Part shown: piece by piece, positions 28,568 through 45,090 of the stretch
Layout of the letters: every line of letters starts with the position of its first letter
How positions within the stretch are numbered: the stretch's first letter is position 1
NCBI GenBank assembly: GCA_016875095.1
Contig: VGSG01000004.1
Location: 1-64,000, forward strand
Direction of reading: 5' to 3'
Source: Deltaproteobacteria bacterium
GTDB taxonomy: Bacteria; Desulfobacterota; Desulfomonilia; Desulfomonilales; Desulfomonilaceae
DNA: 64,000 nucleotides
The notes under the pieces: generated by a model
Told to the model about the DNA's origin: nothing
Seen by the model: only the letters and a program-made list of their open reading frames with translations
The model's database searches: none
Program-made: the position numbers and the translations under genes

Positions 28568-28672
28568 AGTAACTTCGGCCCACAAACTCAGCCTACAGTT
28601 GGCGCCTATCGAGGCAAGGGGGGATTTTCCCTCGAATAACTCAAGGCATACCCCGGTTTTTCGATTTTCCTG

Positions 28673-28700
28673 TTGACTCAGGATCGCGTGCGTCTATAAT
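28673..28700 (+). promoter_or_regulatory. promoter of the trp-aro supra-operon
   Basis: TTGACT (28673-28678), 16-base spacer, perfect TATAAT (28695-28700). The expected start site near 28706-28709 is at, or a few bases before, the leader-peptide ATG at 28710, so the leader peptide may be translated from a near-leaderless mRNA. Confidence 0.75.
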
Positions 28701-28709
28701 AATGTGCTC

Positions 28710-28868
28710 ATGAGCGCAAGCCTTACTGATCGTACGTCCCATTTCTTGGCCGAGCAAGCGGACACCCGCTCTTCGTTCTCGCCTAAGGACTGCGGTTCAT
28801 TCCGGAATTTCGACTACTATTATGGCTGGTGGTGGCCCTATCGATCCGCGGTGGGAGGTAGCGTGTAG
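28710..28868 (+). CDS. trpL: aromatic leader peptide controlling the trp-aro operon
   Basis: This 52-codon frame is too short for usual gene finding. Near its end it reads FRNFDYYYGWWWPYRSAVGG: three consecutive Tyr codons (28815-28823) and three consecutive Trp codons (28827-28835), with Phe at codons 31 and 34 and another Tyr at 44. It stops at 28866-28868, just before a terminator. This is the layout of a ribosome-mediated attenuator leader: stalling at the Tyr or Trp codons leaves 28845-28855 free to pair with 28902-28912. There is no Shine-Dalgarno sequence before the ATG and none at a possible internal TTG (codon 13). Unlike the enterobacterial trp leader, it contains both Tyr and Trp runs, fitting an operon that makes chorismate as well as Trp. 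Confidence 0.88.
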   Translation: MSASLTDRTSHFLAEQADTRSSFSPKDCGSFRNFDYYYGWWWPYRSAVGGSV

Positions 28869-28940
28869 AGTCTGAGCCTCAGATCAACCTGAATCGACAA
28901 GCCCACCGTGGATAACATCCCGGTGGGTTTTTTGTTTTTT
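28845..28940 (+). promoter_or_regulatory. trp-aro attenuator with antiterminator and terminator
   Basis: Terminator: CCCACCG (28902-28908) pairs with CGGTGGG (28921-28927), extended by GGAT/ATCC (28910-28913 with 28917-28920), then TTTTTTGTTTTTT. Antiterminator: TCCGCGGTGGG (28845-28855), directly after the Trp codons, pairs with CCCACCGTGGA (28902-28912) in 11 consecutive pairs, one of them G-U. The two use the same strand, so they exclude each other. A ribosome at the leader stop codon (28866) would cover 28849-28855 and favour the terminator. Confidence 0.85.
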
Positions 28941-28958
28941 GTCGCCCGGAGGTGGCGC

Positions 28959-30347
28959 ATGGCCGCGTTAAGAGTTGTGAGCAGAGAACGACTAGCCGAC
29001 ATGGAAACACCGGTTTCGGCATATCTGAAGTTATGTCGCGAGCGGCCCGATTCGTTCCTGTTGGAAAGTGTGGAAACCAAGGACATTACAGGACGTTACT
29101 CCATCGTCGCGTGCGACCCCATATCCGGCCTGCAACTGGAGCAGGACAAGCTCCTTTGGTGGGACCAGGACCAAAGCAAGGAACTGCCGGCTTCGGAATT
29201 CTTCGATCTTATCCGTTCACACGCGAAGAACTTCGTGTGCGAGCCGTTCTCTCAAATGCCCGCGGTGGGTTCGCTCATGGGATTTGTGGGGTACGACGCA
29301 GTCCGGCTCATCGAGCGGCTTCCCGCCGCGCGACCGCTCTCACTGCCTGTTGCTCGCTTGGTTTTTCCTTCCCGGTTCGTGGTCTTCGATCATCGCCGCA
29401 AGGTCCTGATTCTCCTTGCGATCGACGCGGACGAGTCCGCGTGCGCACACAAAGTCGATGATATGGAACAGGCCCTGAAGCAGCCGCTGCTGCTGTCCGC
29501 TCGACCCGGCAAGATCGCTGTGGAAGCCCCGCCGCGTGAGCGATTCTACGAAGCGGTCAAAACAGGCCAGGAATACATAAAAGCCGGAGACATTTTCCAG
29601 GTGGTGCTCTCAGACGATTTCGGGGGCGAAACCGACTTGGATCCATTTGAGGTGTATCGCCGCCTGCGAGTCAGAAGCCCTTCGCCGTACATGTTCTTCC
29701 TCGATTTCGGCGAATACAAGCTCATCGGCTCCTCGCCCGAGACGCTGGTCAAGGTGGACCGCGGGATTGTGACGGTGCGGCCGATCGCGGGGACACGGGG
29801 CCGCTCAGACGATCCCCGCAGGGACAAGGAGCTGGAGAAGGAGATGATGACCTCTGAAAAGGAACTTGCCGAACATATCATGCTCGTGGACCTGGGCCGC
29901 AACGACGTGGGCCGGGTCAGCCAATACGGGACCGTGACCGTGGATCCGTATATGTCTGTGGAGCGGTACAGCCACGTAATGCACGTGGTGTCCCAGGTGC
30001 AAGGCGTGCTTCGGGAGGATGCAGACGCGGTGGACGCTTTCATCGCGGGTTTTCCCGCGGGCACAGTTTCGGGCGCTCCCAAAGTGCGAGCCATGGAGAT
30101 CATCGACGAGTTGGAGCAGGTCGGCCGCGGTCCGTACGCGGGCGCGGTCGGTTATTTCGGCCCGAACGGCCGAATGGACACGTGCATTGCGATTCGCACG
30201 GTGCTGTTCCAGGGCGATCGTTTCACTGTGCGGGTCGGAGCGGGGATTGTGGCCGATTCCGTTCCTGAGATGGAATACAAGGAAATCCAAAACAAGGCTG
30301 CGCAGAGCCTTTTCGCGCTCCAGGCCGCGGCCGAGGGGGAATTATGA
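28959..30347 (+). CDS. trpE: anthranilate synthase component I
   Basis: Converts chorismate to anthranilate with ammonia from TrpG. The N-terminal region keeps LLES (residues near 36), the Trp-binding motif of feedback-sensitive TrpE, and later SPSPYMFFLDFG, the second part of that site. The C-terminal chorismate-binding domain has GSSPETLVKV, RPIAGTRGR, EHIMLVDLGRNDVGRV, SGAPKVRAMEIIDELE and GGAVGYFGPNGRMDTCI-like sequence (here AGAVGYFGPNG). The ATG at 28959 has GGAGG seven bases upstream, just after the attenuator T run; a frame extension into the terminator is not coding. 462 aa. Controlled by attenuation and probably by Trp. Overlaps trpD by ATGA. Confidence 0.97.
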   Translation: MAALRVVSRERLADMETPVSAYLKLCRERPDSFLLESVETKDITGRYSIVACDPISGLQLEQDKLLWWDQDQSKELPASEFFDLIRSHAKNFVCEPFSQMPAVGSLMGFVGYDAVRLIERLPAARPLSLPVARLVFPSRFVVFDHRRKVLILLAIDADESACAHKVDDMEQALKQPLLLSARPGKIAVEAPPRERFYEAVKTGQEYIKAGDIFQVVLSDDFGGETDLDPFEVYRRLRVRSPSPYMFFLDFGEYKLIGSSPETLVKVDRGIVTVRPIAGTRGRSDDPRRDKELEKEMMTSEKELAEHIMLVDLGRNDVGRVSQYGTVTVDPYMSVERYSHVMHVVSQVQGVLREDADAVDAFIAGFPAGTVSGAPKVRAMEIIDELEQVGRGPYAGAVGYFGPNGRMDTCIAIRTVLFQGDRFTVRVGAGIVADSVPEMEYKEIQNKAAQSLFALQAAAEGEL

Positions 30348-31453
30348 TCCAGGAAGCTCTGGCGAAGGCTGTGGGAGGCGCTGACCTCTCAGAGGCGGAA
30401 ATGATGCAGGTGATGGACGAGGTCACCGAGGGCAAAGCCACCCAAGCGCAGATCGGGGCGCTGTTGATAGCCCTACGCATGAAGGGCGAAAGCGTGGATG
30501 AGATCACCGGCGCCGCCAGAGTCATGCGCGCGAAGAGCGTCAAAATCCCGGTAGGGAATTCCAATCTCTCTGTGGATCGAGATGAGATTAACTGGGACCG
30601 AGAAACCATTGCGGACACCTGCGGCACAGGCGGGGACGGCACGCGAACTTTCAACGTATCGACAGCGACAGCCTTTGTGGTGGCCGGCGCCGGCGTGAGG
30701 GTCGCCAAGCATGGGAATCGCTCGGTCTCCAGTCTCTGCGGCAGCGCGGACGTGGTGGAAGCGCTTGGAGTGCCGCTGGACCTGACACCGGAGCAGGTGG
30801 GTGAATGCATTGATCGGGTGGGGATCGGGTTCTTGTATGCCCCGTTCTTGCACGGCGCGATGCGCCACGTGGCCGGACCTCGCAGAGAAATAGGTCTTCG
30901 CACGATCTTCAATCTCCTTGGCCCGTTGACCAATCCCGCGGGCGCTTCTGTCCAGGTGATCGGGGTATACCGAGAAGACCTGACCGAGACCGTGGCTCAT
31001 GTGCTGCTAAAACTGGGCTCCCGCAGCTCGTTCGTGGTGTTTGGGGACGGGAGTTACGACGAAATCAGCATTACAGGCCCCTCAAAAATCACGCGGCTCC
31101 ACAAGGGCGAAATCTCCACGCACACGTTGATTCCTGAAGATGTGGGCCTGCAAAGAGCCCGCGCTGAGGAAATCCGCGGCGGGGACGCGGCCGAGAACGC
31201 CGCCATTATCCTCAGGATCCTCAACGGCCATAACGGCGCCCGGAAGGACATGGTCCTCCTCAATGCCGCGGCTGCGCTGGTCGCGGCGGGCCGCGCAGAG
31301 TCGATGCAGGACGGCATAGGTCTGGCTTCGGAGGCGATTGATTCGGGAAAAGCGCTTGAGAAGCTCAATGGGTTAATTTCTGTGGCCACTGACTGCGCGT
31401 CCCGCATCAAGAAGGCCGGCGGAGCAGGCATCTTAGAAAGCAAGTCATCATGA
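30344..31453 (+). CDS. trpD: anthranilate phosphoribosyltransferase
   Basis: Transfers phosphoribose from PRPP to anthranilate. The signature DTCGTGGDG appears as ADTCGTGGDGTRTFNVSTAT, followed by VAKHGNRSVSSLCGSADVVE, FLYAPFLHGAMRHVAGPRRE and RTIFNLLGPLTNPAG. 369 aa, slightly longer than the usual 335-345 because of an insertion around residues 65-85 (VKIPVGNSNLSVDRDEINWD). This is a stand-alone TrpD, not fused to TrpG. ATGA overlaps at both ends indicate translational coupling. Confidence 0.97.
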   Translation: MIQEALAKAVGGADLSEAEMMQVMDEVTEGKATQAQIGALLIALRMKGESVDEITGAARVMRAKSVKIPVGNSNLSVDRDEINWDRETIADTCGTGGDGTRTFNVSTATAFVVAGAGVRVAKHGNRSVSSLCGSADVVEALGVPLDLTPEQVGECIDRVGIGFLYAPFLHGAMRHVAGPRREIGLRTIFNLLGPLTNPAGASVQVIGVYREDLTETVAHVLLKLGSRSSFVVFGDGSYDEISITGPSKITRLHKGEISTHTLIPEDVGLQRARAEEIRGGDAAENAAIILRILNGHNGARKDMVLLNAAAALVAAGRAESMQDGIGLASEAIDSGKALEKLNGLISVATDCASRIKKAGGAGILESKSS

Positions 31454-32235
31454 GCATTTTAGCGCACATCCTGGACAGCAAGATGGAAGAAATCCGTCAC
31501 CTGAGAGCTAAAACCGACCTTGTCGCGCTTCATGAGCAGGCCATGAGCATACCTGCATGCATCGATTTGGCCGCTGCTCTGAGAGACTGCCCTCATACGC
31601 CGGTAATCGCGGAGATCAAGCGATCTTCACCGTCGAGCGGAAAGCTCGCGGAGGTCGAAGATGCAGGGCGGCTCGCAGAGACCTATGAGCGGGCCGGCGC
31701 GTCGGCTGTATCGGTGCTCACCGATAGTCTGTTTTTTGGAGGGAGCCTGGAAGACTTGCGGCGGACGCGAGAGGCGGTAAGCCTGCCCATCCTGCGCAAG
31801 GATTTCATCCTGGACCCCATTCAGATTTGTGAGGCGCGTGTTGCCGGAGCTGATGCGGTTCTGCTCATTGCTGCTGCATTGTCGCCAAAGCAATTGAACA
31901 GCCTTTTCGAGACCGCCATGAGCCTAGGTTTGACGCCGGTCGTGGAGGCGCACAACGAAACTGAACTCGCCCGCGCGCTGGAACTCAATCCGCGGATCAT
32001 CGGCATAAACAACCGAAACCTGAGCACGCTCCAGGTCGATCCGGCGACCTTCGTGAGGCTTCGTCCTCTTATCCCACAGGGCGTCTTGGTTCTGGCGGAG
32101 AGCGGAATTTCAGGGCCTGAAGATATCGCCATGCTCCGCAAAGCCGGAGCGGACGCGTTCCTCATCGGCACAACGCTGATGCGGTCGCAAGACCCCGGCG
32201 CAACGCTCCGTCGGCTCTGTTGTTTGGAGGAATGA
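31450..32235 (+). CDS. trpC: indole-3-glycerol phosphate synthase
   Basis: Closes the indole ring from carboxyphenylamino-deoxyribulose phosphate. The barrel motifs are PVIAEIKRSSPSSGKLAE (catalytic Lys, phosphate loop), AVSVLTDSLFFGGSLEDLRR, LPILRKDFILDPIQICEARV, GINNRNLSTLQVD and VLAESGISGPEDIAML. 261 aa, single function, typical length. The start ATG overlaps the trpD stop (ATGA). Confidence 0.97.
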   Translation: MSILAHILDSKMEEIRHLRAKTDLVALHEQAMSIPACIDLAAALRDCPHTPVIAEIKRSSPSSGKLAEVEDAGRLAETYERAGASAVSVLTDSLFFGGSLEDLRRTREAVSLPILRKDFILDPIQICEARVAGADAVLLIAAALSPKQLNSLFETAMSLGLTPVVEAHNETELARALELNPRIIGINNRNLSTLQVDPATFVRLRPLIPQGVLVLAESGISGPEDIAMLRKAGADAFLIGTTLMRSQDPGATLRRLCCLEE

Positions 32236-32237
32236 CC

Positions 32238-32855
32238 GTGGTCAGGGTGAAGATATGCGGCATTACACGCCTTGAAGACGCTCTCGCGGCCGTGAACTTT
32301 GGCGTCGATGCTCTGGGCTTTGTGTTCGCGACAAGCCCGCGACAGGTGGCTCCGGAGACGGTTCAGGCAATAGTCTCTCAATTGCCGCCGTTCGTTACTA
32401 CCGTCGGAGTGTTTGTGAACGAGAAGGTGAGTCGCATAGAGGAGCTGAGATCGTTCTGCCGATTCGATCTGGTGCAACTCCACGGCGATGAGACCGAGGA
32501 AATGGCGGCTCAACTCGGGCCGCGGGTGATTAAGGCCGTCAGAGTGCGTTCCGATGCGCCAGCCGACGTTCAACGCTACGGCAAAGCGACCCTGCTCCTG
32601 GACGCCTATTCGCCAGGGGCCGCCGGCGGCGCGGGCAAAACCTTTGATTGGGGTGTTGCCGTCGCCGTGGCGAAAAAGCGCCCGATCGTGTTGGCAGGCG
32701 GATTGACACCGGAAAACGTGGCTCAGGCTATCGAAACGGTCAGGCCCTATGGCGTAGACGTCTCCAGCGGCGTTGAGATCGGGCCTGGGAGAAAAGGTCA
32801 TGCAAAAATCGAACACTTTATCCGCGCCGCAAAGACCGTGGCACGGAGTTCCTGA
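32238..32855 (+). CDS. trpF: phosphoribosylanthranilate isomerase
   Basis: Amadori rearrangement step of the Trp branch. [20 protein letters not shown] (catalytic Cys), [45 protein letters not shown] and [20 protein letters not shown] are all family motifs. Start choice: GGAGG at 32226-32230 is seven bases before GTG 32238 but only one base before ATG 32232, so GTG is preferred; the ATG would overlap the trpC stop as ATGA and remains possible. About 205 aa. Its 3' end overlaps trpB by 56 bases. Confidence 0.95.
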
Positions 32856-34029
32856 CGAACGCGGGCGCTTTGGGAATTTCGGAGGCCGTTTTGTATCCGA
32901 GACCTTGATGCCTGCGCTCCTCGAACTGACCGCAGCATTTGAAGAAGTCCAGCGCGATCCTACTTTCCACAACGAACTGGAAGAGCTGCTGCGGCATTAC
33001 GTTGGCCGGGAGACGCCTCTGTACGAAGCTCGTCGTCTCAGCGAAAAACTGGGCGGGCCGAGGATATTCCTCAAGCGGGAAGATTTGGCCCACACCGGCG
33101 CCCACAAGATCAACAACACCCTCGGCCAGGGGCTGCTTGCCAAACGCATGGGCAAAAGACGGATCATCGCGGAAACCGGCGCGGGCCAGCACGGCGTGGC
33201 TTCAGCCACTGTCGCGGCCCTGCTGGGTATGGAATGCGTTGTGTACATGGGCGCGCTGGACATTGAGCGGCAAGCCCTGAACGTGGCGCGCATGAAATTC
33301 CTCGGGGCCCGGGTCGAACCGGTGGATTCCGGGAGCTGCTCGCTCAAGGATGCGGTGAATGAGGCGATCCGGGCATGGGTAACCCATGTGAAAGATACCC
33401 ATTACATCCTTGGGTCTGTGGTGGGGCCGCATCCGTATCCGATGATGGTCCGGGAGTTCCAGTCGATTATAGGCCGAGAGACCCGCAGGCAGATCATCGA
33501 ACGGGAAGGCCGTCTGCCCGACGCGCTTGTGGCATGTGTGGGCGCAGGTAGCAATGCGATAGGTTTCTTCCATCCGTTCTTGGACGATCCCGTGGAACTG
33601 ATTGGTGTGGAAGCCGCGGGCGACGGCCTGGAGACCGGACGGCATGCGGCAACGTTGAGCGCGGGCACGATAGGCGTTTTGCACGGCGCACGCAGTTACC
33701 TGTTGCACGATGAGCACGGGCAAATCCTGGAGGCTCATTCCATTGCCGCGGGGTTGGATTATCCGGGTGTTGGGCCTGAACACGGGTATTTAAGGGATGT
33801 CGGTAGGGTAAGATACGAAACTGCCACCGACGAAGACGCGCTGGGAGCTTTTCAGACCCTCGCGAAAACTGAGGGCATCCTCCCTGCTTTGGAAAGCGCA
33901 CATGCATTGGCGCACCTGACGAAGCTGGCGCCCAGGATGAAGAAAGATGCGGTGGTCATTGTCTGCCTCTCAGGAAGAGGCGACAAGGACGTTGCGCAAC
34001 TCTCCGCGAGAATGGAGCGCCGACCATGA
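32800..34029 (+). CDS. trpB: tryptophan synthase beta chain
   Basis: PLP-dependent condensation of indole and serine. [40 protein letters not shown] (PLP Lys in HKINN), [71 protein letters not shown] and [10 protein letters not shown] are diagnostic of the TrpB1 type. ATG 32800 lies inside the trpF 3' end, with GGGAGAAAAGG upstream. 409 aa. Forms the alpha2beta2 complex with the next gene product. Confidence 0.97.
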
Positions 34030-34853
34030 TGAAATCGATCATTAAACAAGCTTTGAGAAAGGCCCATTCAGAGGGTCGATGCGCTTTTATTCCGTTCCTG
34101 ACAGGGGGCTTTCCCGATGAAGCCACGTGCGGCGACATCCTGTTTGCTCTGGCGGACAGCGGCGCTGATGTGATTGAAGTGGGACTCCCCTTTTCCGACC
34201 CTATGGCTGACGGGCCGACAATCCAGTATTCGAGCTGCAAAGCGCTGGAAAACGGGACCACGCCCGAGAGCGTATTTCGAATCATGGAGAAGGCGAAGGC
34301 CAAGACGAGCTGTCCGTTCGTCATCATGACCTATTACAATCCGGTGTTCCGCATGGGGCTGGAGGAGTTCGCAAAACGCGCAAGAGATTCGGGCGCGGAC
34401 GGCGTGATCGTTCCGGACCTTCCTCCGGAGGAAGCGGATGAGTGGCTCGACGCAGCCCACAGGGCAGGCTTGGATACCATTTTTCTGGTGGCGCCCACTA
34501 CACCTTCAGAGCGCATGGCATGGATAGCGTCTCTATCAAAGGGCTTTCTCTACTATGTTTCCATGATTGGAGTAACCGGCGCCGCTTTCAATCTTTCCGA
34601 CGAGCTTGTCACCGGCATTGCGGCCGCGAAGTCTCTGTCGAAGACGCCGGTTGCGGTGGGTTTTGGAATCTCGAAACCTGCTGAAGCTCATGCGCTCGGT
34701 CAGGTGGCGGACGGGGTCATCGTGGGAAGCGCGTTTATTCGAGAGATCCAGTCTCAGACGAGCCCATCGGCGCAGGCGCACGCTGCCGCGGCGCTCGCGC
34801 AGTCGTTTAGGGCAGCGCTCGGTCGAAGCAATAGTTCGGAGGTGAGGAAGTGA
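34026..34853 (+). CDS. trpA: tryptophan synthase alpha chain
   Basis: Cleaves indole-glycerol phosphate to indole and passes it to Trp[36 protein letters not shown] (catalytic Glu and Asp), [40 protein letters not shown]-type [15 protein letters not shown] and [16 protein letters not shown]. 275 aa, normal. The ATG overlaps the trpB stop (ATGA). Confidence 0.97.
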
Positions 34854-34886: not shown

Positions 34887-35525
34887 ATGATCTTGCTACT
34901 CGATAACTACGATTCTTTTACCTACAACATTGCGCATGCTCTGGGCGCCTTGGGCAAAGTGGTCACCACAATAAGATCCGACACTGTCAGCGTCGCGGAG
35001 GTAGAAAGTATGGCCCCGGAGGCGATCGTCATCTCGCCGGGCCCGGGCCGACCCGACGAAGCCGGAATCAGCTCCAAGGTCATCGAGCGCTTTGCGGGTT
35101 TGGTCCCGATCCTGGGGGTCTGTCTTGGGCACCAGTGCATCGCGGAAGTCTTTGGAGCGAAAGTGAACCGGGCCGAACAGCCCGTTCACGGCAAGATCTC
35201 CGACATTTTCCACGATGGTCGCACCATCTACGCCGGACTGCGCAATCCGCTGAGAGCCACCCGTTACCACTCGCTCATCACTGCGGAAGAAACGGTGCGC
35301 CGGCCGTTGGAGATCTCGGCGTACACAGTGCGCGGGGAAGTGATGGGTCTGCGCTGCCCGGACATGATGATAGAAGGCGTGCAATTTCACCCTGAATCGA
35401 TCGGCACGCCCCAAGGCGGAGTGATCTTTCGAAACTTCGTGGAGCAGTATCTGAGCGCGTGTGAAGCCGCACAGCATGAGGCGAGTCCAGCGCCAATGAG
35501 CAACCAGGAAGGCGCCACATGGTAA
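34887..35525 (+). CDS. trpG: anthranilate synthase component II (glutamine amidotransferase)
   Basis: Class I amidotransferase giving ammonia to Trp[33 protein letters not shown] (oxyanion strand), [11 protein letters not shown] with nucleophile Cys79 and [14 protein letters not shown] with His168/Glu170 complete the triad. GGAGG lies six bases before the ATG. 212 aa. It is placed after trpA, not next to trpE as in most operons, and runs straight into aroF1 with a 7-base overlap. A role as pabA (folate) subunit is possible, but its position inside the Trp run favours TrpG. Confidence 0.93.
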
Positions 35526-36559
35526 TTGTCATGCGAGAAGACTGCCGGAAAAAGCAAGTGGGTGAGGTTTTGGCCGCGATCCGGCGGCGCGGACTGAAAC
35601 CACGGATGATTTCAGCAACATCCAGAGTGGTGATTGGGATTGTGGAGGACCTGGCAGGCAGTCTGGTGGAAGAATTGCGAAGCCTCATACTCCAAATGGA
35701 CGGCGTGGAGTCTATTGGGACTTTTGGCGCGTCCTGGAAACTCGTTTCTCGAAGCTTTCGAAACGAGAGAACCACCATCAGGGTGGGATCGAGCCTGATC
35801 GGCGGCCCTGATCCGGTGGTGATGGCAGGCCCTTGCGCTGTAGAGTCCCGCGAGGGCATCATGGAGATCGCGCAGGCGGTCAAGGAGGCGGGCGCGGCCG
35901 TTCTCCGCGGCGGCGCATTCAAGCCCAGAACGTCGCCTTACTCCTTCCGCGGGCTCGGGGAAGAGGGGCTTGAACACATGGCTGAAGCCTCGCGGATGAC
36001 TGGTCTTCCCATTGTAACGGAAGTGCTTACGCCGGAAGATGTGCCGCTTGTGGCCCGTTACGCTGATATCTTGCAGATAGGCGCGAGAAACATGCAGAAT
36101 TTTGCCCTGTTGGAAGCAGTTGGCGACACGGATAAGCCGGCGCTCATCAAACGGGGGCTCATGGCCACGGTGAAGGAGCTTTTGCTGTCTGCGGAATATA
36201 TTCTTGCCAGAGGGAATTCCCGGGTGATGTTCTGCGAGCGAGGGATCAGGACTTTCGAAACTGAAACACGCAATACGCTCGACATTTCTGCCGTGCCGCT
36301 GCTGAAGCAGCATTCGCATCTTCCGGTCATCGTGGATCCGAGCCATGCGGTCGGGAAGCGAGAGCTGGTCTCTGCCGTGGCGCTGGCGGCAATCGCAGCC
36401 GGAGCGGATGGATTGATGGTGGAAGTGCACACCAATCCCGACAAAGCTTTCTCCGACGGGCGTCAGAGCCTCACCCCGGAGGCGTTCCACGCGATCATGC
36501 GCCACGTGCCGGCCGTCGCGGCCGCGGTTGCGACGGCGTACAACGGAGGCGCACAGTGA
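35519..36559 (+). CDS. aroF: DAHP synthase with N-terminal regulatory domain
   Basis: First shikimate-pathway step (phosphoenolpyruvate plus erythrose-4-phosphate). Residues 1-67 form a ferredoxin-like ACT-type domain ([20 protein letters not shown] ... [12 protein letters not shown]), as in the type I-beta Thermotoga-like enzymes, where it mediates inhibition by aromatic amino acids. The barrel has [81 protein letters not shown] and [19 protein letters not shown]. 346 aa. Feedback-regulated by inference; a shorter isozyme without this domain is at 42180. Confidence 0.95.
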
Positions 36560-37806
36560 GTCTGAGGGGCGTATTCCAGCCGCCAGGGGACAAGTCCATT
36601 TCCCACCGCACGGCGCTGTTTTCACTGCTGGCAAAGGGTCGGGCGCGGGTAGAGAATTTCTCACCATGCGCAGACGTGCGCTCTAGCCTTGATGCAGCGT
36701 TGGCTCTAGGGGCCGAAGCGGATCTGAATGGAGACAGCCTCGTCATTACGGGTTCCTATGGCCGCCTCAGACCCGCAGCGCACATTGACTGCGGCAATTC
36801 CGGAACCACGCTGAGGCTTTTGATGGGCATTCTAGCAGGTGGCGAAGGCGACTACCTCCTGGACGGAGATGCGTCCCTGCGGAAGCGTCCCATGGAACGC
36901 GTGGCCGCGCCGCTCAGGCGGATGGGCGCGAAAGCGCAGTGCGAGCATGGGGCTTGCCCTGTACGCGTTCGGGGAACAAAACTGCACGGGATCGATTTTG
37001 AGCTGCCGGTTGCAAGCGCTCAGCTCAAGAGCGCCGTGTTGTTGGCAGGGATCCAGGCCGACGGCCAAACCCGTGTGCGGGAACGGGTGGCGAGTCGGGA
37101 CCACACGGAACGATTGCTCCGGATCATGCGTGCGTTCATCTCAAAAACCGGCGCCGCATGGCTCGTTCAGCGCTCGTCTCTGACGCTCCCCGATCTCTTT
37201 CGTGTGCCGGGGGATGCTTCATCCGCGGCTTTCTTCTTATGCGCGGCGGCAATCATTCCCGATAGTGATGTCACTGCTGAGGGAGTTCTGCTCAACCCGA
37301 CGAGATCGGGTCACTTGGATACGCTCATAAAAATGGGCGCGCGAGTGGAGATCGAACGTCAAGGTGACGAGCCTGAGCCGTGGGGACGAGTGCGGGTCCG
37401 CTTCTCGCCTGGTTTGACCGGGCGCCGGATCAGGGCGGAAGAAATCCCTTCTCTCGTGGATGAGGCGCCCATATTGGCTCTGGTTGCCACGCAGGCGCAT
37501 GGAACCACGGTCTTCGAGCAGGTGGGAGAGTTGCGCCTCAAAGAGTCGGACCGTCTCGCGGCCATCGCGAGCCAGCTTACGGCTATGGGCGCAAACGTCG
37601 TAGCTGAAGAGGAGACTCTGGCGATCGAAGGCCCGAGTCCTTTGAAAGCCCCGAGCCGTTTGGATGCGTTCGGAGATCATCGCATCGCCATGACATTGCG
37701 ATTGGCAGGATTGCTGGCGGATGAGTGGCCGGTGATAGTCGGCGAAGACTCAATCGCGATATCATATCCGGGTTTTCAAGAAACATTAGCCGAGTTGCGA
37801 ACATGA
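36556..37806 (+). CDS. aroA: EPSP synthase (3-phosphoshikimate 1-carboxyvinyltransferase)
   Basis: Joins phosphoenolpyruvate to shikimate-3-phosphate. [117 protein letters not shown] and [14 protein letters not shown] are family motifs. A GTG start overlaps the aroF stop (GTGA). 416 aa, a little shorter than the Escherichia enzyme, usual for this subgroup. Confidence 0.96.
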
Positions 37807-38621
37807 AAGTCTATTGTGTGCTCAGTGACGAGCGGGCCTTCCGTTCGAAGTCCCCCGCCATACATAACATGGCGCTGAAACGGAACGGCATTGTGGGAGT
37901 ATATGTTCCGTTCATGGTTCTGCCTGACCGCGTCGGGGAAGCCATCCGTGATGTCAGAATCCTCAACATAGCCGGCGCCAACGTTACCGCGCCCTATAAG
38001 CAAGCGGTGTTGCGATACCTGGACTCACTGTCGGAAGAGGCTTCAGCTATCGGCGCGGTCAACACTATCGTGCGGGACGGAAACGCATTGGTCGGCCACA
38101 ACACGGATGCGAAGGGATTCATGGATGCGCTGGGCAGCGTCGGATTCGACTCCTCCGGCAAAACCTCGCTGGTCATCGGCGCCGGCGGCGCGGCCAAGGC
38201 GGTGGCGTATGGTATTAAGACGCACGGTCTTGGACACGTCTTCATCGCGGGAAGGAATTCGGAGAAGGCGCGGCAAGCCGCGGAAAAACTTGGGCTGGAA
38301 ACGGTTTCATTTACATCCCTGGCTGCAGATGGGATTGAAGCCGAGCTCGTGGTGAACGCAACAGCAGTATCCAGCGCAGACGAGAGTATGGTTACCGCGG
38401 AATTCGCGCGACGGTTGAACATCGGTCGGTGCGAGCTGGTCGTGGACATAAACTACGGTCGTAGCGAGAATTTCTGGCAAGAGCTTGCCCAAAAGCACGG
38501 CGCCTCTTTTGTGGACGGTTTGCCCATGCTGGCATATCAGGCGCGACGCAGCTTCACGCTGTGGACAGGGCTGGAGGTGGATGCCAGAGAGTTCCTCGAA
38601 GCGCTTGAGGATGGCTCATGA
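37803..38621 (+). CDS. aroE: shikimate dehydrogenase
   Basis: NADPH-dependent reduction of 3-dehydroshikimate. RSKSPAIHNMALKRNGIVGV (substrate Ser and catalytic-site region), GANVTAPYKQAVLRYLDSL (catalytic Lys), GAVNTIV, GHNTDAKGFMDAL, VIGAGGAAKAVAYGI (nucleotide fold) and DGLPMLAYQARRSFTLWTG. 272 aa. The ATG at 37803 overlaps the aroA stop; upstream frame to 37725 lies in aroA and is rejected. Confidence 0.95.
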   Translation: MKVYCVLSDERAFRSKSPAIHNMALKRNGIVGVYVPFMVLPDRVGEAIRDVRILNIAGANVTAPYKQAVLRYLDSLSEEASAIGAVNTIVRDGNALVGHNTDAKGFMDALGSVGFDSSGKTSLVIGAGGAAKAVAYGIKTHGLGHVFIAGRNSEKARQAAEKLGLETVSFTSLAADGIEAELVVNATAVSSADESMVTAEFARRLNIGRCELVVDINYGRSENFWQELAQKHGASFVDGLPMLAYQARRSFTLWTGLEVDAREFLEALEDGS

Positions 38622-40186
38622 ACAGGAACATTTACCTGGTCGGCTTCATGGGCTCAGGCAAGACCACGGTGGGGAGACTCCTGGCTCAGGCGCTCAATCG
38701 GCGTTTCGTGGACATGGACGAGATTCTTGAAAAGCGTTTCCGGAAACCCATTCGAGAAGTATTCCTTAAATCGGGAGAGCCCGGGTTTCGTGCGAAAGAG
38801 AGCGCTCTTCTTGAAAACATCGCAAAGCAAGAGGGACTCGTGGTGGCTACGGGCGGCGGCGCGCCGGAACGGGAGGCGAACCGAAAGCTGATGAGGTCCA
38901 CGGGCGCTGTCGTTCATTTGCACGTGGACTTCGAAACATCACAGAAAAGACTCGGCGCGGGGCAGCGTGCAGCGAGACCCTTGTGGACGGAGAAAACGGC
39001 TGTGCAAAGCCTGTTTGAAAGCCGCAAGAGTCTTTACGCAGACTGCGACTTCAGCGTGGAGTCCGATGGAAAAAAACCTGAGCGCGTCTCAGAGGCAATT
39101 CTACAGCGTCTCATGCCTGAAGAGCGTTTCGTGGCAAGACTGGGATCGGCGGAGTGTCCGATCATCGCCACACTCAATGCGCCCGAGGCCATCGCGGAAC
39201 AGGCAAAGGGCAGGAAGACCGCGCTCGTGACCGATAGCGCCGTATTGCGTCTTCATGGTCAGAGGTATCGATCTCTCATGGAACGATCAGCGCTGATCAC
39301 GCTCTCCCCAGGCGACAAGAGCAAGACCCTGGCGAATGCTCGCCGCATCTATGAAGCCCTCATTTCGAATGAGTTCGATAGGGATGACTTCCTGATCGCA
39401 TTAGGGGGCGGTGTGGTGACTGATTTGGCCGCGTTCGCAGCCTCAACCTATAAGCGCGGGATGGATCACGCCCTTGTCGCCACTACGCTCGTGGGATGTG
39501 TGGACGCGGCTATCGGCGGAAAGTCCGCAGTGAATGTCGGGTCCGTGAAAAATGTGGTGGGGTCGTTCAACGCGCCTCGTGTCGTGGCGCTGGACATCGC
39601 TGCTCTTCGCACGCTCGGACCGCGGCGGAGAAGCGAGGGGCTGGTGGAAGCGTACAAGACAGGACTCGTCGCGTCGCCTGAGCTGGTTGGGGTTATTGAG
39701 CGGCGTGCGTCCGCGCTCATGAGCGGAGATCTTGTCCTGCTCTCGCGAGTGGCCCGGTTCTCGGCCCGCGCCAAAGCCGACGTGATATCAAGAGATTTCC
39801 GTGAGTCTGGGCTCCGGCGCATCCTGAACTTTGGGCATACATTCGGCCATGCGGTGGAAAGCCTTCATCATTTTCGGGTGAGTCACGGACAGGCCGTGGC
39901 GTTGGGCATGCGTGTGGCCGCGGAGATCTCCAGGGCAAGAGGGCTCCTGTCATCTCAGATGGCGGCCCGAATAAATTCCACGCTTGGTGTCATTGCCCCT
40001 TACACCGTGGGGATGCCGCCGGTGGACGAAGCGTGGAAGATCATGCAACAGGACAAGAAGAACAGACGCGGGAAAATGGTTTTTGTTCTTCTGAATAACG
40101 CTGGACGAGCGATTTGTGTCGACGATCTCTCTAAAGAAGAATTAGCCGCCGCGGTTCAACGGGTCCGGGGGTCGGAGCATGGGTAG
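38618..40186 (+). CDS. aroKB: shikimate kinase - 3-dehydroquinate synthase fusion
   Basis: One frame of 522 aa encodes two enzymes. Residues 1-165: shikimate kinase with P-loop GFMGSGKTTVGRLLAQ, VDMDEILEKRF, FRAKESALLENI and ATGGGAPER. Residues about 170-522: dehydroquinate synthase with ALGGGVVTDLAAFAASTYKR, GCVDAAIGGKSAVNVGSVKN, LVEAYKTGLVA and NFGHTFGHAVESLHHFRVSH (zinc-binding His). The kinase and synthase are non-adjacent steps of the pathway, so the fusion is not a channel of consecutive reactions. ATGA overlap with aroE; 8-base overlap with aroC. Confidence 0.95.
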   Translation: MNRNIYLVGFMGSGKTTVGRLLAQALNRRFVDMDEILEKRFRKPIREVFLKSGEPGFRAKESALLENIAKQEGLVVATGGGAPEREANRKLMRSTGAVVHLHVDFETSQKRLGAGQRAARPLWTEKTAVQSLFESRKSLYADCDFSVESDGKKPERVSEAILQRLMPEERFVARLGSAECPIIATLNAPEAIAEQAKGRKTALVTDSAVLRLHGQRYRSLMERSALITLSPGDKSKTLANARRIYEALISNEFDRDDFLIALGGGVVTDLAAFAASTYKRGMDHALVATTLVGCVDAAIGGKSAVNVGSVKNVVGSFNAPRVVALDIAALRTLGPRRRSEGLVEAYKTGLVASPELVGVIERRASALMSGDLVLLSRVARFSARAKADVISRDFRESGLRRILNFGHTFGHAVESLHHFRVSHGQAVALGMRVAAEISRARGLLSSQMAARINSTLGVIAPYTVGMPPVDEAWKIMQQDKKNRRGKMVFVLLNNAGRAICVDDLSKEELAAAVQRVRGSEHG

Positions 40187-41234
40187 CTCGTTCGGGCGAT
40201 ACTTTCAAGTGACTACCTTCGGTGAGTCTCACGGCGCGGCTGTGGGCGTTGTAATCGATGGAATTCCCGCGGGAATTCCCGTCGATCTTGCGCGCATCCA
40301 GCAAGAGCTTAACCGCCGTAAACCCGGGGTGTCTCGATTTGTCTCCCCTCGCGGCGAATCAGACGAAGTGGAGATCCTTTCGGGCGTGAGCCACGGCAAG
40401 GCATTGGGATCGCCTATTGCGCTCCTGGTGCGAAATCGAGACGTTCAGTCCGCCGACTATGCTGAGATCCGAGAATTGTTCCGCCCCGGACATGCAGATT
40501 ACACCTACTTCAAGAAATACGGCGCGCCGCCTCAGCCGGGAGGAGGAAGAGCGTCGGGAAGAGAGACGGTCGGTCGAGTAGCCGCGGGCGCGGTGGCAAA
40601 AGCTCTGCTTGAGTCCCACGGAATTACGATTCAGGCTTACACGGTTGCCATCGGCGGAATCCACGCGGCTCGTGTGGACCGCGACTTTGCCGAAAAAGAC
40701 CCTCTTCGCTGCGCAGACCCTGATGTTTCCGCACGAATGGCCGAATTGATCGACCAGGCTAGATCTGACGGCGATTCCGTGGGCGGTGTTGTGGAACTGA
40801 CTGTGGATGGGGTTCCCGCGGGCTTGGGCGATCCGGTTTTTCACAAGCTGGACGCGGCGCTGGCTTGGGCCATGATCTCGATAGGAGCGGTCAAAGGGGT
40901 GGAGTTCGGCGCGGGATTCCAGCTTGCCGCCATGCGCGGGTCCCAATCGAACGATCAGATTTCTTCTCAGGGGTTCTTGTCCAACAATGCCGGCGGGATC
41001 TTGGGCGGCATTTCCACGGGACAACAGATTCTCATGCGCCTGGCTGTTAAGCCCACATCGTCCATATCAAAACCCCAGGCCACCATAGACATTCACGGCG
41101 CGGACCGGACCATTGAAGTGAAGGGACGGCATGACCCATGTCTATGCCCTCGGATCTGCCCCGTTGCCGAGGCCATGGCCGCACTGGCGCTTGCGGATGC
41201 GCTCCTGGAGCGAAAAGCCACATCCATTCCTTAA
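40179..41234 (+). CDS. aroC: chorismate synthase
   Basis: FMN-dependent 1,4-elimination that makes chorismate. TTFGESHGAAVGVVIDGIPA, RRKPGVSRFVSPRGESDEVE, RPGHADYTYFKKYG, GGGRASGRETVGRVAAGAVA, KGVEFGAGFQLAAMRGSQSN and NNAGGILGGISTGQQ are diagnostic; the catalytic His of GRASGRET/FGESHG is kept. 351 aa, full length. The ATG lies inside the end of the aroKB gene. Confidence 0.97.
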   Translation: MGSSFGRYFQVTTFGESHGAAVGVVIDGIPAGIPVDLARIQQELNRRKPGVSRFVSPRGESDEVEILSGVSHGKALGSPIALLVRNRDVQSADYAEIRELFRPGHADYTYFKKYGAPPQPGGGRASGRETVGRVAAGAVAKALLESHGITIQAYTVAIGGIHAARVDRDFAEKDPLRCADPDVSARMAELIDQARSDGDSVGGVVELTVDGVPAGLGDPVFHKLDAALAWAMISIGAVKGVEFGAGFQLAAMRGSQSNDQISSQGFLSNNAGGILGGISTGQQILMRLAVKPTSSISKPQATIDIHGADRTIEVKGRHDPCLCPRICPVAEAMAALALADALLERKATSIP

Positions 41235-41258
41235 CATCCTATAAGAAGCGGAGGCCTG

Positions 41259-41696
41259 ATGAAGATCTTCGTCATCAACGGTCCGAACCTTAATCTGCTG
41301 GGCCAACGTGAACCCGAGCTGTACGGGAGCAAGACGCTTCCCGAAATCGAAGACGATCTGGTGAAGTTGGGTTCGGAGCTGGGCATCGAGGTGACCTGCT
41401 TTCAATCCAATCACGAGGGCGAGCTGGTGGACATACTCCAGGACGCGGGGCAAAGCGCTGACGGCGCGATTCTTAACGCGGGGGCTTATACTCACACCAG
41501 CGTTGCCGTGCGCGATGCTGTTGCGGCAATCGGCGTGCCCGTGCTGGAAGTTCACCTGACAAATCCTTACGCCCGAGAAGGTTTTCGAAGGGTCTCATTG
41601 CTGGCTGGGGTTTGCAAGGGCTCCATCTGCGGGTTTGGTCGGGAATCGTACACACTCGCGTTGATCTGGTTCGCTCGGAACGCGGGGACCGGATAG
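41259..41696 (+). CDS. aroQ: type II 3-dehydroquinate dehydratase
   Basis: Third shikimate step. INGPNLNLLGQREPELYGSK (catalytic Tyr/Arg loop), CFQSNHEGELVD (His), GAILNAGAYTHTSVAVRDAV and VLEVHLTNPYAREGFRRVSL are type II motifs. 145 aa, the normal dodecameric small enzyme. With it, all seven shikimate enzymes are present in this cluster. Separated from aroC by 24 bases with AGCGGAGG before the ATG. It is the last gene of the first transcription unit; 41697-41957 follows. Confidence 0.96.
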   Translation: MKIFVINGPNLNLLGQREPELYGSKTLPEIEDDLVKLGSELGIEVTCFQSNHEGELVDILQDAGQSADGAILNAGAYTHTSVAVRDAVAAIGVPVLEVHLTNPYAREGFRRVSLLAGVCKGSICGFGRESYTLALIWFARNAGTG

Positions 41697-41957: not shown

Positions 41958-42056
41958 ATGCATTTTCCGACGGATAGCATGGACAGATTAGGGCGATTCT
42001 ACGGCTACTTCTATTATTATTTCGCCTTTGTCTGCCCGTGCGCCCGAGGTGAATGA
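41958..42056 (+). CDS. Phe/Tyr leader peptide controlling aroF2-pheA-tyrA
   Basis: A 32-codon frame, ATG with GGAAGG ten bases upstream. Codons 14-24 read FYGYFYYYFAF: five Tyr and four Phe in eleven codons, including Tyr-Tyr-Tyr at 42012-42020. It ends CPCARGE and a TGA at 42054-42056, followed by two terminators. This is an attenuator leader of the pheL type but responding to both Phe and Tyr, matching the operon it precedes (DAHP synthase, chorismate mutase/prephenate dehydratase, prephenate dehydrogenase). Confidence 0.9.
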   Translation: MHFPTDSMDRLGRFYGYFYYYFAFVCPCARGE

Positions 42057-42157
42057 CGCGTAAGAAAATAAGCTGAATTCAACGAGGCCATGGGCGGACA
42101 GTCCATGGCCTTTTTGCTTTGCGTGAGGCCATGGCAAACACCATGGCCTCTTGTTTT
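42028..42157 (+). promoter_or_regulatory. tandem attenuator of aroF2-pheA-tyrA
   Basis: Terminator 1: GGCCATGG (42086-42093) with CCATGGCC (42103-42110), then TTTTTGCTTT. Terminator 2: GAGGCCATGG (42125-42134) with CCATGGCCTC (42141-42150), then TTGTTTT. Antiterminator: TTGTCTGCCCGTG (42028-42040), right after the aromatic codons, with CATGGGCGGACAG (42089-42101), 13 consecutive pairs, three of them G-U; this takes the 5' arm of terminator 1. The released CCATGGCCT (42103-42111) can then pair with AGGCCATGG (42126-42134), taking the 5' arm of terminator 2. Confidence 0.8.
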
Positions 42158-42179: not shown

Positions 42180-43076
42180 ATGAACGGAGATTGCCTCATT
42201 ACGGTAGAGCCCCAGGTTTCTCCGCAGATCGCGATGGCGCCGCGCAACAGCCGACAGCTTCCTCCCTATCGGCTCGCCAGCCGCGCCGCGCATCCCAGGT
42301 CCACGGTTATCAAGGTCGGAGAGGCGCTTATTGGCGGTCCGAAGTTCGTGGTTATCGCGGGTCCTTGTTCGGTTGAAAGCGAATATCAGCTCGTTTCCAC
42401 AGCCAAGGCGGTTAAGGAATCGGGCGCGGCTATCCTTAGGGGCGGCGCGTTCAAGCCCCGAACGTCGCCGTACAGCTTCCAGGGGCTGGAAGAGGAAGGA
42501 TTGAAGCTCCTGGCGCGGGCTCGGGAAGTAACCGGCCTGCCGGTGGTGACCGAGGTGATGGATTCGGGGGACATCCCGCTGATTGCGAGACACGCGGATA
42601 TCGTCCAGGTAGGCGCGCGAAATATCCAGAACTTCTCGCTGTTGAAGAAACTCGGCAAAGTCAACAAGCCGATCCTTCTGAAGCGCGGACTCATGACGAC
42701 TCTGGACGAGTTCCTGATGTCCGCTGAATACATTCTGGCGGCAGGCAACGGGGACGTGATCCTGTGCGAACGCGGTATCCGAACTTTTGAAACCGCTACT
42801 CGCAACACGTTGGACCTGAGCGCGGTGCCGGTTCTCAAAGAGCGAACTCACCTACCCGTCATTGTTGACCCAAGCCACGCGGTCGGCAAGGCCCGGTACG
42901 TCGGTCCGCTCTGCCGCGCCGCCCTTGCTGTGGGCGCGGACGGGATCATGGTGGAGGTGCACTGCAATCCCTCCGAGGCGCTATGTGACGGCGAACAGTC
43001 GCTTACCCCGCGGCGATTCCGCGAACTCATGGACGAACTCAGCGCCCTGGCTCATTTGATTCAGCGTGAGTCCTGA
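42180..43076 (+). CDS. aroF: DAHP synthase, short form without regulatory domain
   Basis: Second isozyme. It has the same barrel motifs as the enzyme at 35519 ([100 protein letters not shown]), but only about 45 residues of unrelated sequence precede the barrel, so the ACT-like domain is missing. ATG 42180 has AAGGAGG eight bases upstream; the longer frame from 42090 runs through terminator 1 and is rejected. 298 aa. It is expected to be insensitive to allosteric inhibition and controlled by the Phe/Tyr attenuator. Confidence 0.94.
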
Positions 43077-43123
43077 TTACGGACGGGTCGGTATTCGAAT
43101 ATAGGCCGGAAGAGGGTTTTGAG

Positions 43124-44296
43124 ATGATAGTGACGGAAGAACAATTAATACATGGAATACGAGAGCGTATCGACCTGCTGGATGACGAGATCATTCGGCT
43201 GCTCCACGAGCGCGCCGCACAGGCCAAGGAGATCGGCCGCCTGAAACGGACAAACGGCTTGCCCGCGTTGGATGCGCAACGAGAGCGAGCAGTGCTGGAA
43301 AGACTCTCCTGCGGCAAATCCGGGCTGTTGCAACCCTCAGCCCTAAAACACATCTTCACCGAGATTATCGCCGCGTGCCGGGCAATCCAGGAACCTCTCA
43401 AGGTCTCACATCTCGGCCCTGAAGCCACCTTCACCCACATGGCCGCGATGGACTACTTCGGCCGCTCGTGCGAATTCTTCCCGAGAGACTCCATCGTAGA
43501 TGTGTTCCGGGACGTGCAGAGCGGCCACGCGCATTTCGGCGTCGCGCCGGTGGAAAATTCCACCGAAGGTTCGGTCGGGCTCACTCTAGACCAGTTGGCG
43601 GACGGCGATTTGAAGATCTGCGGAGAAATCTACCTACGCATTTCCCACGCGCTCATGTCTACAGAACGGGATCTCAGCCGCATCAAGGAGGTCTTGTCGC
43701 ATCCGCAAGCTTTGGGGCAATGCTTGGGCTGGTTGTCACGCAACCTTCCCGCCAGGCCCTTAGTGCAGATGTCCAGCACCGCGGTCGCCGCGAAAAAGGC
43801 CGCGGAGCAACCCGGATCCGCGGCTGTGGGCAATGAGGCTCTAGCTCGTCTGCACGGACTGCACGTGCTTGCACGCGGCATTCAGGATCGGTCCACGAAT
43901 GTGACGCGATTTCTCGTCCTTGGAAATGAGGAGCATGCGCCAACCGGCCGGGATAAAACCTCGATTCTCTTTTCCACGCCGCACCGTCCCGGCGCGCTAT
44001 TGAAGGCATTGACGCCTTTTTCTCAGCAAGGCGTGAATATTTCCCGCATTGAGTCACGGCCGTCAAAAGAAACGCCGTGGGAGTATATCTTCTTTGCGGA
44101 CTTTGAAGGTCACGTTTCAGACGAACACGTCCGAGCCGCGCTGGAAGAGTTCTCCCAATGTGTGAATCGACTCAGGATGTTGGGCTCTTATCCGGCGGGT
44201 GACCGGGCGGGGAGGAGCGCCCTCTCTCTAGAAGCAGTGATGTCTGCGTCAGGAGGAGAAAAGGAGCCATGCACGCGCGTGAACCTGAAAGCATAG
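43124..44296 (+). CDS. pheA: chorismate mutase - prephenate dehydratase (P-protein)
   Basis: Bifunctional: chorismate to prephenate to phenylpyruvate. Residues 1-90 are an AroQ-type mutase (RERIDLLDDEIIRLLHERAA, QAKEIGRLKR). Residues about 95-275 are prephenate dehydratase (LGPEATFTHMAAMDYFG, GVAPVENSTEGSVGLTLDQL, STNVTRFLVLG). The ACT domain follows at about 285-360 (HRPGALLKALTPFSQQGVNI, SRIESRPSKETPWEYIFFAD) with the Gly-Ala-Leu and Glu-Ser-Arg-Pro positions used for Phe inhibition. 390 aa with a short Ser-rich tail. Overlaps tyrA by 28 bases. Confidence 0.96.
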   Translation: MIVTEEQLIHGIRERIDLLDDEIIRLLHERAAQAKEIGRLKRTNGLPALDAQRERAVLERLSCGKSGLLQPSALKHIFTEIIAACRAIQEPLKVSHLGPEATFTHMAAMDYFGRSCEFFPRDSIVDVFRDVQSGHAHFGVAPVENSTEGSVGLTLDQLADGDLKICGEIYLRISHALMSTERDLSRIKEVLSHPQALGQCLGWLSRNLPARPLVQMSSTAVAAKKAAEQPGSAAVGNEALARLHGLHVLARGIQDRSTNVTRFLVLGNEEHAPTGRDKTSILFSTPHRPGALLKALTPFSQQGVNISRIESRPSKETPWEYIFFADFEGHVSDEHVRAALEEFSQCVNRLRMLGSYPAGDRAGRSALSLEAVMSASGGEKEPCTRVNLKA

Positions 44297-45090
44297 TAAT
44301 TGTGGGTGGCCTGGGCCGGATGGGCTCTCGGATGCACAAATTATTTCTCGACGCGGGCTACCGCGTCGAGGTTGCAGACAAAGCCACCGGACCTATTGCA
44401 TATGAGTCTATCGCGGAACACGACGTCATACTGCTCGCGGCGCCCATCCCCGCGCTGGAGGAATTGATGGAAGCCTTGGGGCCTTTTACGCGTCCCGACG
44501 GCGCGATTATTGACATCGCGTCCGTGAAAGCCGCGCCGATTCAAGCTATGCTGCTCCACGCCAGAGGTGAGGTCATCGGAAGTCACCCGCTCTTCGGCCC
44601 GGACACACCCTCTTTGCAGGACCAGATCGTTTTCGTTTGCCCTGCTCGCTCCAAGAAGTGGGTTGTGTGGTTTCGGCATTTCATGGAACTACAGGGCGCA
44701 AGGGTCGTGGTAATCGATCCCGACGTCCACGATCGACTCATGGCTGTGGCGCAGGTGTTCAGGCACATGCTCCTCTTTTGTTTCGCCCGGTCTCTTATGA
44801 ACATGGACTTCGACCTGCGGTCCTATTTGCCTGTTTCAGGCCCATGGTTTTCCCAGCTCACAGAGATGTTAGGCTGCCAGCTCAAACAGCGGCCCGGACT
44901 GTACGCGGAGCTTGCGGCGCATAATTCCGCCACTGGCCAGGTGGCGGAGAACTTCCTGAGGGCCGCGCAGGAAATCGCCGCGTCGTACAGGGACTCAGAT
45001 TCCTCAAGTCTTATCAGCATCATAGATGATCTTTCCAATTACATGCTCACCGAGATCTCGCCGGCCGAATCTTCTTCCGCCACACCCTGA
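44269..45090 (+). CDS. tyrA: prephenate dehydrogenase
   Basis: Oxidative decarboxylation of prephenate to 4-hydroxyphenylpyruvate. N-terminal nucleotide fold VIVGGLGRMGSRMHKLFLDA, IDIASVKAAPIQAM, then IGSHPLFGPDTPSLQDQIVF (substrate-binding His) and a helical dimer domain (FDLRSYLPVSGPWFSQLTEM). 273 aa, resembling the dehydrogenase part of the enterobacterial T-protein but without a fused mutase or ACT domain, so Tyr inhibition is not evident. Cofactor (NAD or NADP) and use of arogenate cannot be decided by eye. Last gene of the aromatic cluster. Confidence 0.92.
   Translation: MHAREPESIVIVGGLGRMGSRMHKLFLDAGYRVEVADKATGPIAYESIAEHDVILLAAPIPALEELMEALGPFTRPDGAIIDIASVKAAPIQAMLLHARGEVIGSHPLFGPDTPSLQDQIVFVCPARSKKWVVWFRHFMELQGARVVVIDPDVHDRLMAVAQVFRHMLLFCFARSLMNMDFDLRSYLPVSGPWFSQLTEMLGCQLKQRPGLYAELAAHNSATGQVAENFLRAAQEIAASYRDSDSSSLISIIDDLSNYMLTEISPAESSSATP

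Follow-up and report, generated by a model that had tools for sequence, protein, structure and literature searches.

The region between positions 28673 and 28940 of the 64,000-nucleotide stretch of DNA analysed here (the window) is probably a ribosome-mediated transcription attenuator sensitive to the charging of tRNA-Tyr as well as of tRNA-Trp, a reading to which we assign a probability of about 0.74 from its sequence, its relatives and a model of ribosome stalling. We infer that transcription starts near 28707 and that a ribosome translates a 52-codon leader behind the polymerase. Slowing of this ribosome at Tyr or Trp codons would leave segment 2 of the leader (28844-28855) free to pair with segment 3 (28902-28913), so that the terminator would be blocked and an operon for chorismate and Trp transcribed. 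A ribosome that reached the stop codon at 28866 would instead cover segment 2, segment 3 would pair with 28921-28927 and transcription would end in the T tract. Shortage of Tyr alone would be expected to relieve termination, and the leader would act as a two-amino-acid OR gate. This is the best reading because the switch is conserved, its helices covary, Phe and Tyr codons are concentrated in the zone in which they could be sensed, leader codons generally track the genes behind them and a homologous scaffold is found with Tyr codons at a DAHP synthase.

All features of the window described here lie on its forward strand. A near-consensus sigma-70-like promoter (TTGACT-16-TATAAT, 11/12 matches) occupies 28673-28700 and is followed by the leader 1 frame, MSASLTDRTSHFLAEQADTRSSFSPKDCGSFRNFDYYYGWWWPYRSAVGGSV, of 52 codons plus TAG at 28710-28868, which has homologues in relatives. 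The peptide ends in FDYYYGWWWPYRSAVGGSV, and the antiterminator, the T-tract terminator and trpE come next. Codons for end products of the operon are clustered in this short ORF: three Tyr codons (TAC TAT TAT, 28815-28823) precede three TGG Trp codons (28827-28835), and an additional Tyr codon, TAT at 28839, lies 3' of the Trp run. In the antiterminator TCCGCGGTGGG (28845-28855) pairs with CCCACCGTGGA (28902-28912). Segment 3 also provides the 5' arm of an intrinsic terminator hairpin (28899-28930), in which 28902-28908 pairs with CGGTGGG at 28921-28927, and the T tract (28928-28940) stands between the leader and the start of trpE at 28959. The frame, the Tyr and Trp runs, the helices and the T tract had all been described in the initial annotation and were recovered to the base; the 11-base antiterminator pairing proposed there also holds and is extended to 12 pairs by A28844:T28913. 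A possible segment 1 or protector (28837-28843) would pair with 28849-28855 in a fold of 28832-28932, although this helix is weak at 7 bp; a CACC/GGTG form of it is visible by eye in several relatives.

The leader 1 ATG lies 10 nt past the -10 box, which leaves no room for a Shine-Dalgarno sequence and counts against the proposed mechanism. With this spacing, translation of the leader may start on a transcript that is leaderless or almost so. By eye, the spacing seen in the window (28700-28712) is also found in one relative (L111), and GGAG-like sites are present in the leaders of two others (L112 and L115). The lack of an obvious Shine-Dalgarno sequence could also be taken to mean that the ORF is no regulatory leader, the terminator being either constitutive or limited in its action to transcripts from upstream, and the reading is made from the DNA of a MAG. 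We consider this very improbable, given that a promoter lies directly upstream, that the arrangement recurs in two families, that the leader codons are conserved and that the mutually exclusive helices covary.

The behaviour of the switch was examined in a stall model in which RNA polymerase is placed just past segment 3 and the ribosomal A-site is moved codon by codon. With the A-site at any of the three Tyr codons or at the first two Trp codons the antiterminator forms in full, at about 12 pairs; at the third Trp codon 10.3 pairs form, at the last Tyr codon (28839) 4.9 and at the stop codon none, as expected from the earlier proposal that a ribosome at the stop would mask 28849-28855. The Tyr and Trp codons thus both fall within the permissive zone of the model, and segment 2 is masked at the stop and free at the sensor codons, the antiterminator and terminator being mutually exclusive. 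The Tyr codon at 28839 is probably no sensor, because a ribosome at that position hides some of the antiterminator. In three relatives (L112, L113 and L120) the permissive zone opens one codon ahead of a Phe-Tyr-Trp-Trp run. Modelled with no ribosome, the antiterminator is close to zero in some relatives and full in others. Even with a ribosome on the Tyr codons, the lowest-energy fold of the whole leader is the terminator; this counts against the switch, which would therefore rely on folding during transcription. The E. coli trp attenuator likewise relies on folding during transcription.

Only two ORF ends on either strand of the window combine an aromatic run with a terminator (at least six Phe, Tyr or Trp in nine codons, with a hairpin and T run within 110 nt), those with stops ending at 28868 and 42056. 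One such ORF end in total was found in 40 dinucleotide shuffles, the background rate being that of the window and its own shuffles. Generic folding z-scores of the leader were unremarkable (-1.7) and were left out of the evidence. Another aromatic regulator such as a T-box, TRAP or a riboswitch might act on the terminator, and elsewhere such systems do control trp and aro genes. An Rfam scan of the window returned tRNAs only, and at a relaxed threshold 28660-28970 gave two sub-threshold chance matches; at neither level was there a match to a T-box upstream of trpE, to a riboswitch or TRAP element, or to the Trp_leader family (RF00513). Regulation of this kind is accordingly regarded as exceedingly improbable.

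Further support for the attenuator comes from relatives, gathered by searching related genomes together with the family to which the window belongs and that of another genome (G093). A homologous leader region was found before the same type of trpE in 23 further genomes from two families; the leader, both helices and the helix spacing all recur. A terminator is present in 24/24 genomes with this trpE-type locus and a recognisable antiterminator, at a spacing of 53-66 nt, in 23/24, that of L114 being weak. Alignment of the 24 leader 1 regions gave 14 two-sided changes in the antiterminator against 6.2 in shuffles (score 0.180 against 0.112; 0/500) and 8 in the terminator against 1.8 (score 0.223 against 0.153; 0/500), values inflated, as are the codon statistics below, by relatedness among the genomes. 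The covariation signal collapses when the registers are slid, and swapping of arms among species gave z values of 4.8 for leader 1 and 4.9 for a second leader described below. No such leader was found in L031, whose TrpE is 64% identical, which counts against the attenuator, nor in most of the distant TrpE relatives examined. The comparison with related genomes that had been proposed for leader codons and pairings bears out both helices, which covary in 24 genomes, and the leader codons in 19 of the 22 distinct leaders before operons of trpE plus chorismate genes, which carry Phe/Tyr together with Trp codons; three leaders deviate.

Those three (L116, L145 and L121) precede the same kind of operon, trpEG-aro, and in none of them does a Phe or Tyr come ahead of the final Trp in the first Trp cluster; L116 and L145 are Trp-only, and the Trp codons of L121 are interrupted by a single Phe. 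They are among the evidence for an ordinary Trp attenuator, in which sensing would be left to the Trp codons, the Tyr codons (or the Phe/Tyr of relatives) being incidental or serving just to slow the ribosome and place it. The Trp codons are those nearest to segment 2, some trp-only leaders also hold one or two Phe or Tyr codons beside the Trp run, and in the Corynebacterium glutamicum aroR leader, according to PMC11802643, the Tyr codon is without effect. That Phe-Tyr-Phe leader answers to Phe and not to Tyr, so a response to Tyr should not be assumed from codons alone, and it is chiefly this analogy that calls for caution over Tyr sensing. Against Trp-only sensing, the enrichment of Phe and Tyr is limited to the sensing zone, defined as the last Trp codon and the seven before it: with Trp codons set aside, Phe and Tyr make up 55/119 of the codons within the zone and 26/786 of those elsewhere in the 22 distinct leader 1 sequences. 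The enrichment is also above that of trp-only leaders, with genus-group means of 2.4 and 0.44 Phe/Tyr per leader (Mann-Whitney p = 0.002), although such p values are optimistic because the sequences are related, leader starts were partly chosen by us (Met or truncation) and genus g66 was split into three groups by eye. Furthermore, a Phe/Tyr-rich second leader and a Tyr-run leader at a DAHP synthase indicate that the sensors of this family change with the product. Sensing by Trp alone is therefore judged unlikely, and the dual Tyr and Trp attenuator of the initial annotation is favoured by the stall model, by covariation in 24 genomes and by the relative rarity of zone Phe/Tyr in trp-only leaders.

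Regulation here extends beyond a single predicted switch. Behind leader 1 the genes run trpE-D-C-F-B-A-G-aroF1-aroA-aroE-aroKB-aroC-aroQ, comprising trpE (28959-30347), trpD, trpC, trpF, trpB and trpA (30344-34853), trpG/pabA (34887-35525), the DAHP synthase gene aroF1 (35519-36559) and aroA, aroE, an aroKB fusion, aroC and aroQ (36556-41696). A second attenuator then precedes aroF2-pheA-tyrA (42180-45090), in which aroF2 was recognised as a DAHP synthase gene by its similarity to aroF1, and pheA and tyrA were provisionally named from their translations and from conserved gene order in relatives. The genes for Trp and chorismate claimed for the operon are therefore present, but that account was not complete, as aroF2-pheA-tyrA follow behind their own attenuator. 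Each leader has one of the genome's two DAHP synthase genes behind it.

Leader 2 (ORF MHFPTDSMDRLGRFYGYFYYYFAFVCPCARGE, 41958-42056) is the other hit of the ORF-end scan and was missed in the initial annotation; it has homologues in relatives and is a Phe/Tyr leader, GRFYGYFYYYFAF. Its peptide, GRFYGYFYYYFAFVCPCARGE, is accompanied by its own antiterminator and terminator within 41958-42112, and this second attenuator would act in the same mode with Phe and Tyr codons. The antiterminator (42028-42101) consists of 11 pairs between TTGTCTGCCCG (42028-42038) and TGGGCGGACAG (42091-42101), which vary in relatives with compensating changes (GTCTGCC/GGCAGAC, GTCTACC/GGTAGAC and GTCCGCC/GGCGGAC), and the terminator hairpin folds at 42084-42112. 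Trp is absent from leader 2 in most genomes. An extra hairpin with a short T run is predicted 3' of this terminator (42125-42150), its arms GGCCATGG/CCATGGCC being nearly those of the leader 2 terminator; by eye, L111, L112 and L121, all of the window's family, have similar double hairpins, and L115 does not.

In the window's family and in the second one (f17), the codons of a leader generally match the genes behind it, with sets such as FYWW before trpEG-aro, FYFYFYYF before aroF-pheA-tyrA and mostly WWW before trpDCFBA or trpEGDCFBA. Within one genus of the window's family (g5) the leader before trpE-trpG-aro is GFLFYWWR, that before aroF2-pheA-tyrA is AYFYFWRFYYF and that before trpDCFBA is the Trp-only WGWWR, whereas a plain trpEGDCFBA operon in four genomes of the window's family has Trp-only leaders (NNWWWCW, NWWWRW). 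Leader 1 of f17 takes forms such as FGVWFYWWR, LFFSYYWW, FGFYWWW and AFFYFWW; leader 2 has Phe/Tyr and at most one Trp. Ahead of trpD the f17 leaders are rich in Trp; some include a Tyr or Phe, and tandem pairs are frequent. Tandem Trp leaders upstream of trpD were noted in L139, L140, L146, L147, L149 and L152 (for example AWRNWWWR, then GVWGWWWR). In g5 (L112, 11881-12078; also L113, L114 and L118) trpDCFBA is preceded by a Trp leader formed by the C-terminal tail of TyrA, in frame, WGWWRDIGGDSRHIEV, and the antiterminator overlaps the 3' end of tyrA; from this sequence arrangement, tyrA, a structural gene, seems also to provide the leader peptide of a Trp switch.

A covariance model of leader 1, run against 395 genomes from the phylum, also recovered a scaffold sharing its antiterminator and terminator before a separate DAHP synthase in four f17 genomes (L174, L175, L176 and L184), where the codons form a Tyr run (YLYYYYY, FGYYYYY, FFYFYYY or YLYSYYY). 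GACGGTG/CCCACCGTC elements common to leader 1 and these scaffolds suggest that the scaffold was duplicated and its sensor then changed, and among the comparative evidence this makes the strongest case for selection on codon identity. Hits in a further family (f71; L177-L180) and in one other genome (G307; L182), lying before aroF-trpEGDCF, were rejected as mixed-type leaders, being Trp-codon leaders (FWWCWWWC or FWFWWRK), and two hits (L181 and L183) were dropped for want of an aromatic context. We think it slightly better than an even chance that a modular attenuator family runs the aromatic pathway of these bacteria, in which one scaffold has been copied and its codons reprogrammed (Phe/Tyr with Trp for chorismate plus trpE, Phe with Tyr for DAHP synthase-pheA-tyrA, Trp for trpDCFBA and Tyr for a separate DAHP synthase), each copy being an OR gate over the products that depend on the genes behind it and one genus using the TyrA C-terminal tail as the leader peptide of its Trp switch.

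If this is true, attenuation would serve as logic over a whole branched pathway, with sensors matched to products and no repressor protein. The natural leaders, with their mixtures of Phe, Tyr and Trp on comparable scaffolds, make it directly testable which codons are read at which positions, and offer a simple route to predicting the regulation of aromatic operons in uncultured bacteria.

Among the open-access papers examined, none was found to describe a leader with Tyr+Trp or Phe+Tyr+Trp codons. Attenuators have been predicted before tyrA/trp supraoperons, for example in Desulfovibrio vulgaris, which are considered likely to be attenuator-controlled (PMC1173090); the passages of that source consulted give no leader codons or sensor logic. 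The uORFC-13-1 motif before aroF in Acholeplasma (PMC8632094) is likewise a predicted uORF with Phe codon(s) and a terminator ahead of a DAHP synthase, but involves one amino acid, another phylum and another structure. Functionally nearest to leader 2 is C. glutamicum aroR, a Phe-Tyr-Phe leader before the aroF DAHP synthase operon at which stalling raises transcription and Phe limitation acts while Tyr limitation does not (Neshat et al., 2014, cited in PMC11802643; also PMC4046766). As described there, it differs from the window leaders in its response to Phe only, its lack of Trp codons, its separation from the trp operon and its phylum, and the likeness noted is one of function. By analogy, the mechanism of leader 1 is best read as that of the E. 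coli trp attenuator (trpL, RF00513), with which it shares a Trp-codon leader ORF, alternative 2:3 and 3:4 hairpins, a T tract and control by ribosome position; the E. coli attenuator senses Trp only and controls trp genes only, whereas the window leader has Tyr and Trp codons before an operon that also makes chorismate. Multivalent attenuators, in which one leader peptide senses several end products, are exemplified by thr (Thr/Ile) and ilvGMEDA (Ile/Val/Leu). Both operons are listed as attenuation-controlled (PMC1183508) and, with the Phe/Tyr leader of Corynebacterium aroR, they qualify the initial view that established knowledge covers Trp-only leaders, since leaders for several amino acids were already known. 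The thr and ilvGMEDA attenuators serve the threonine and branched-chain pathways, whereas the leaders of the window are aromatic.
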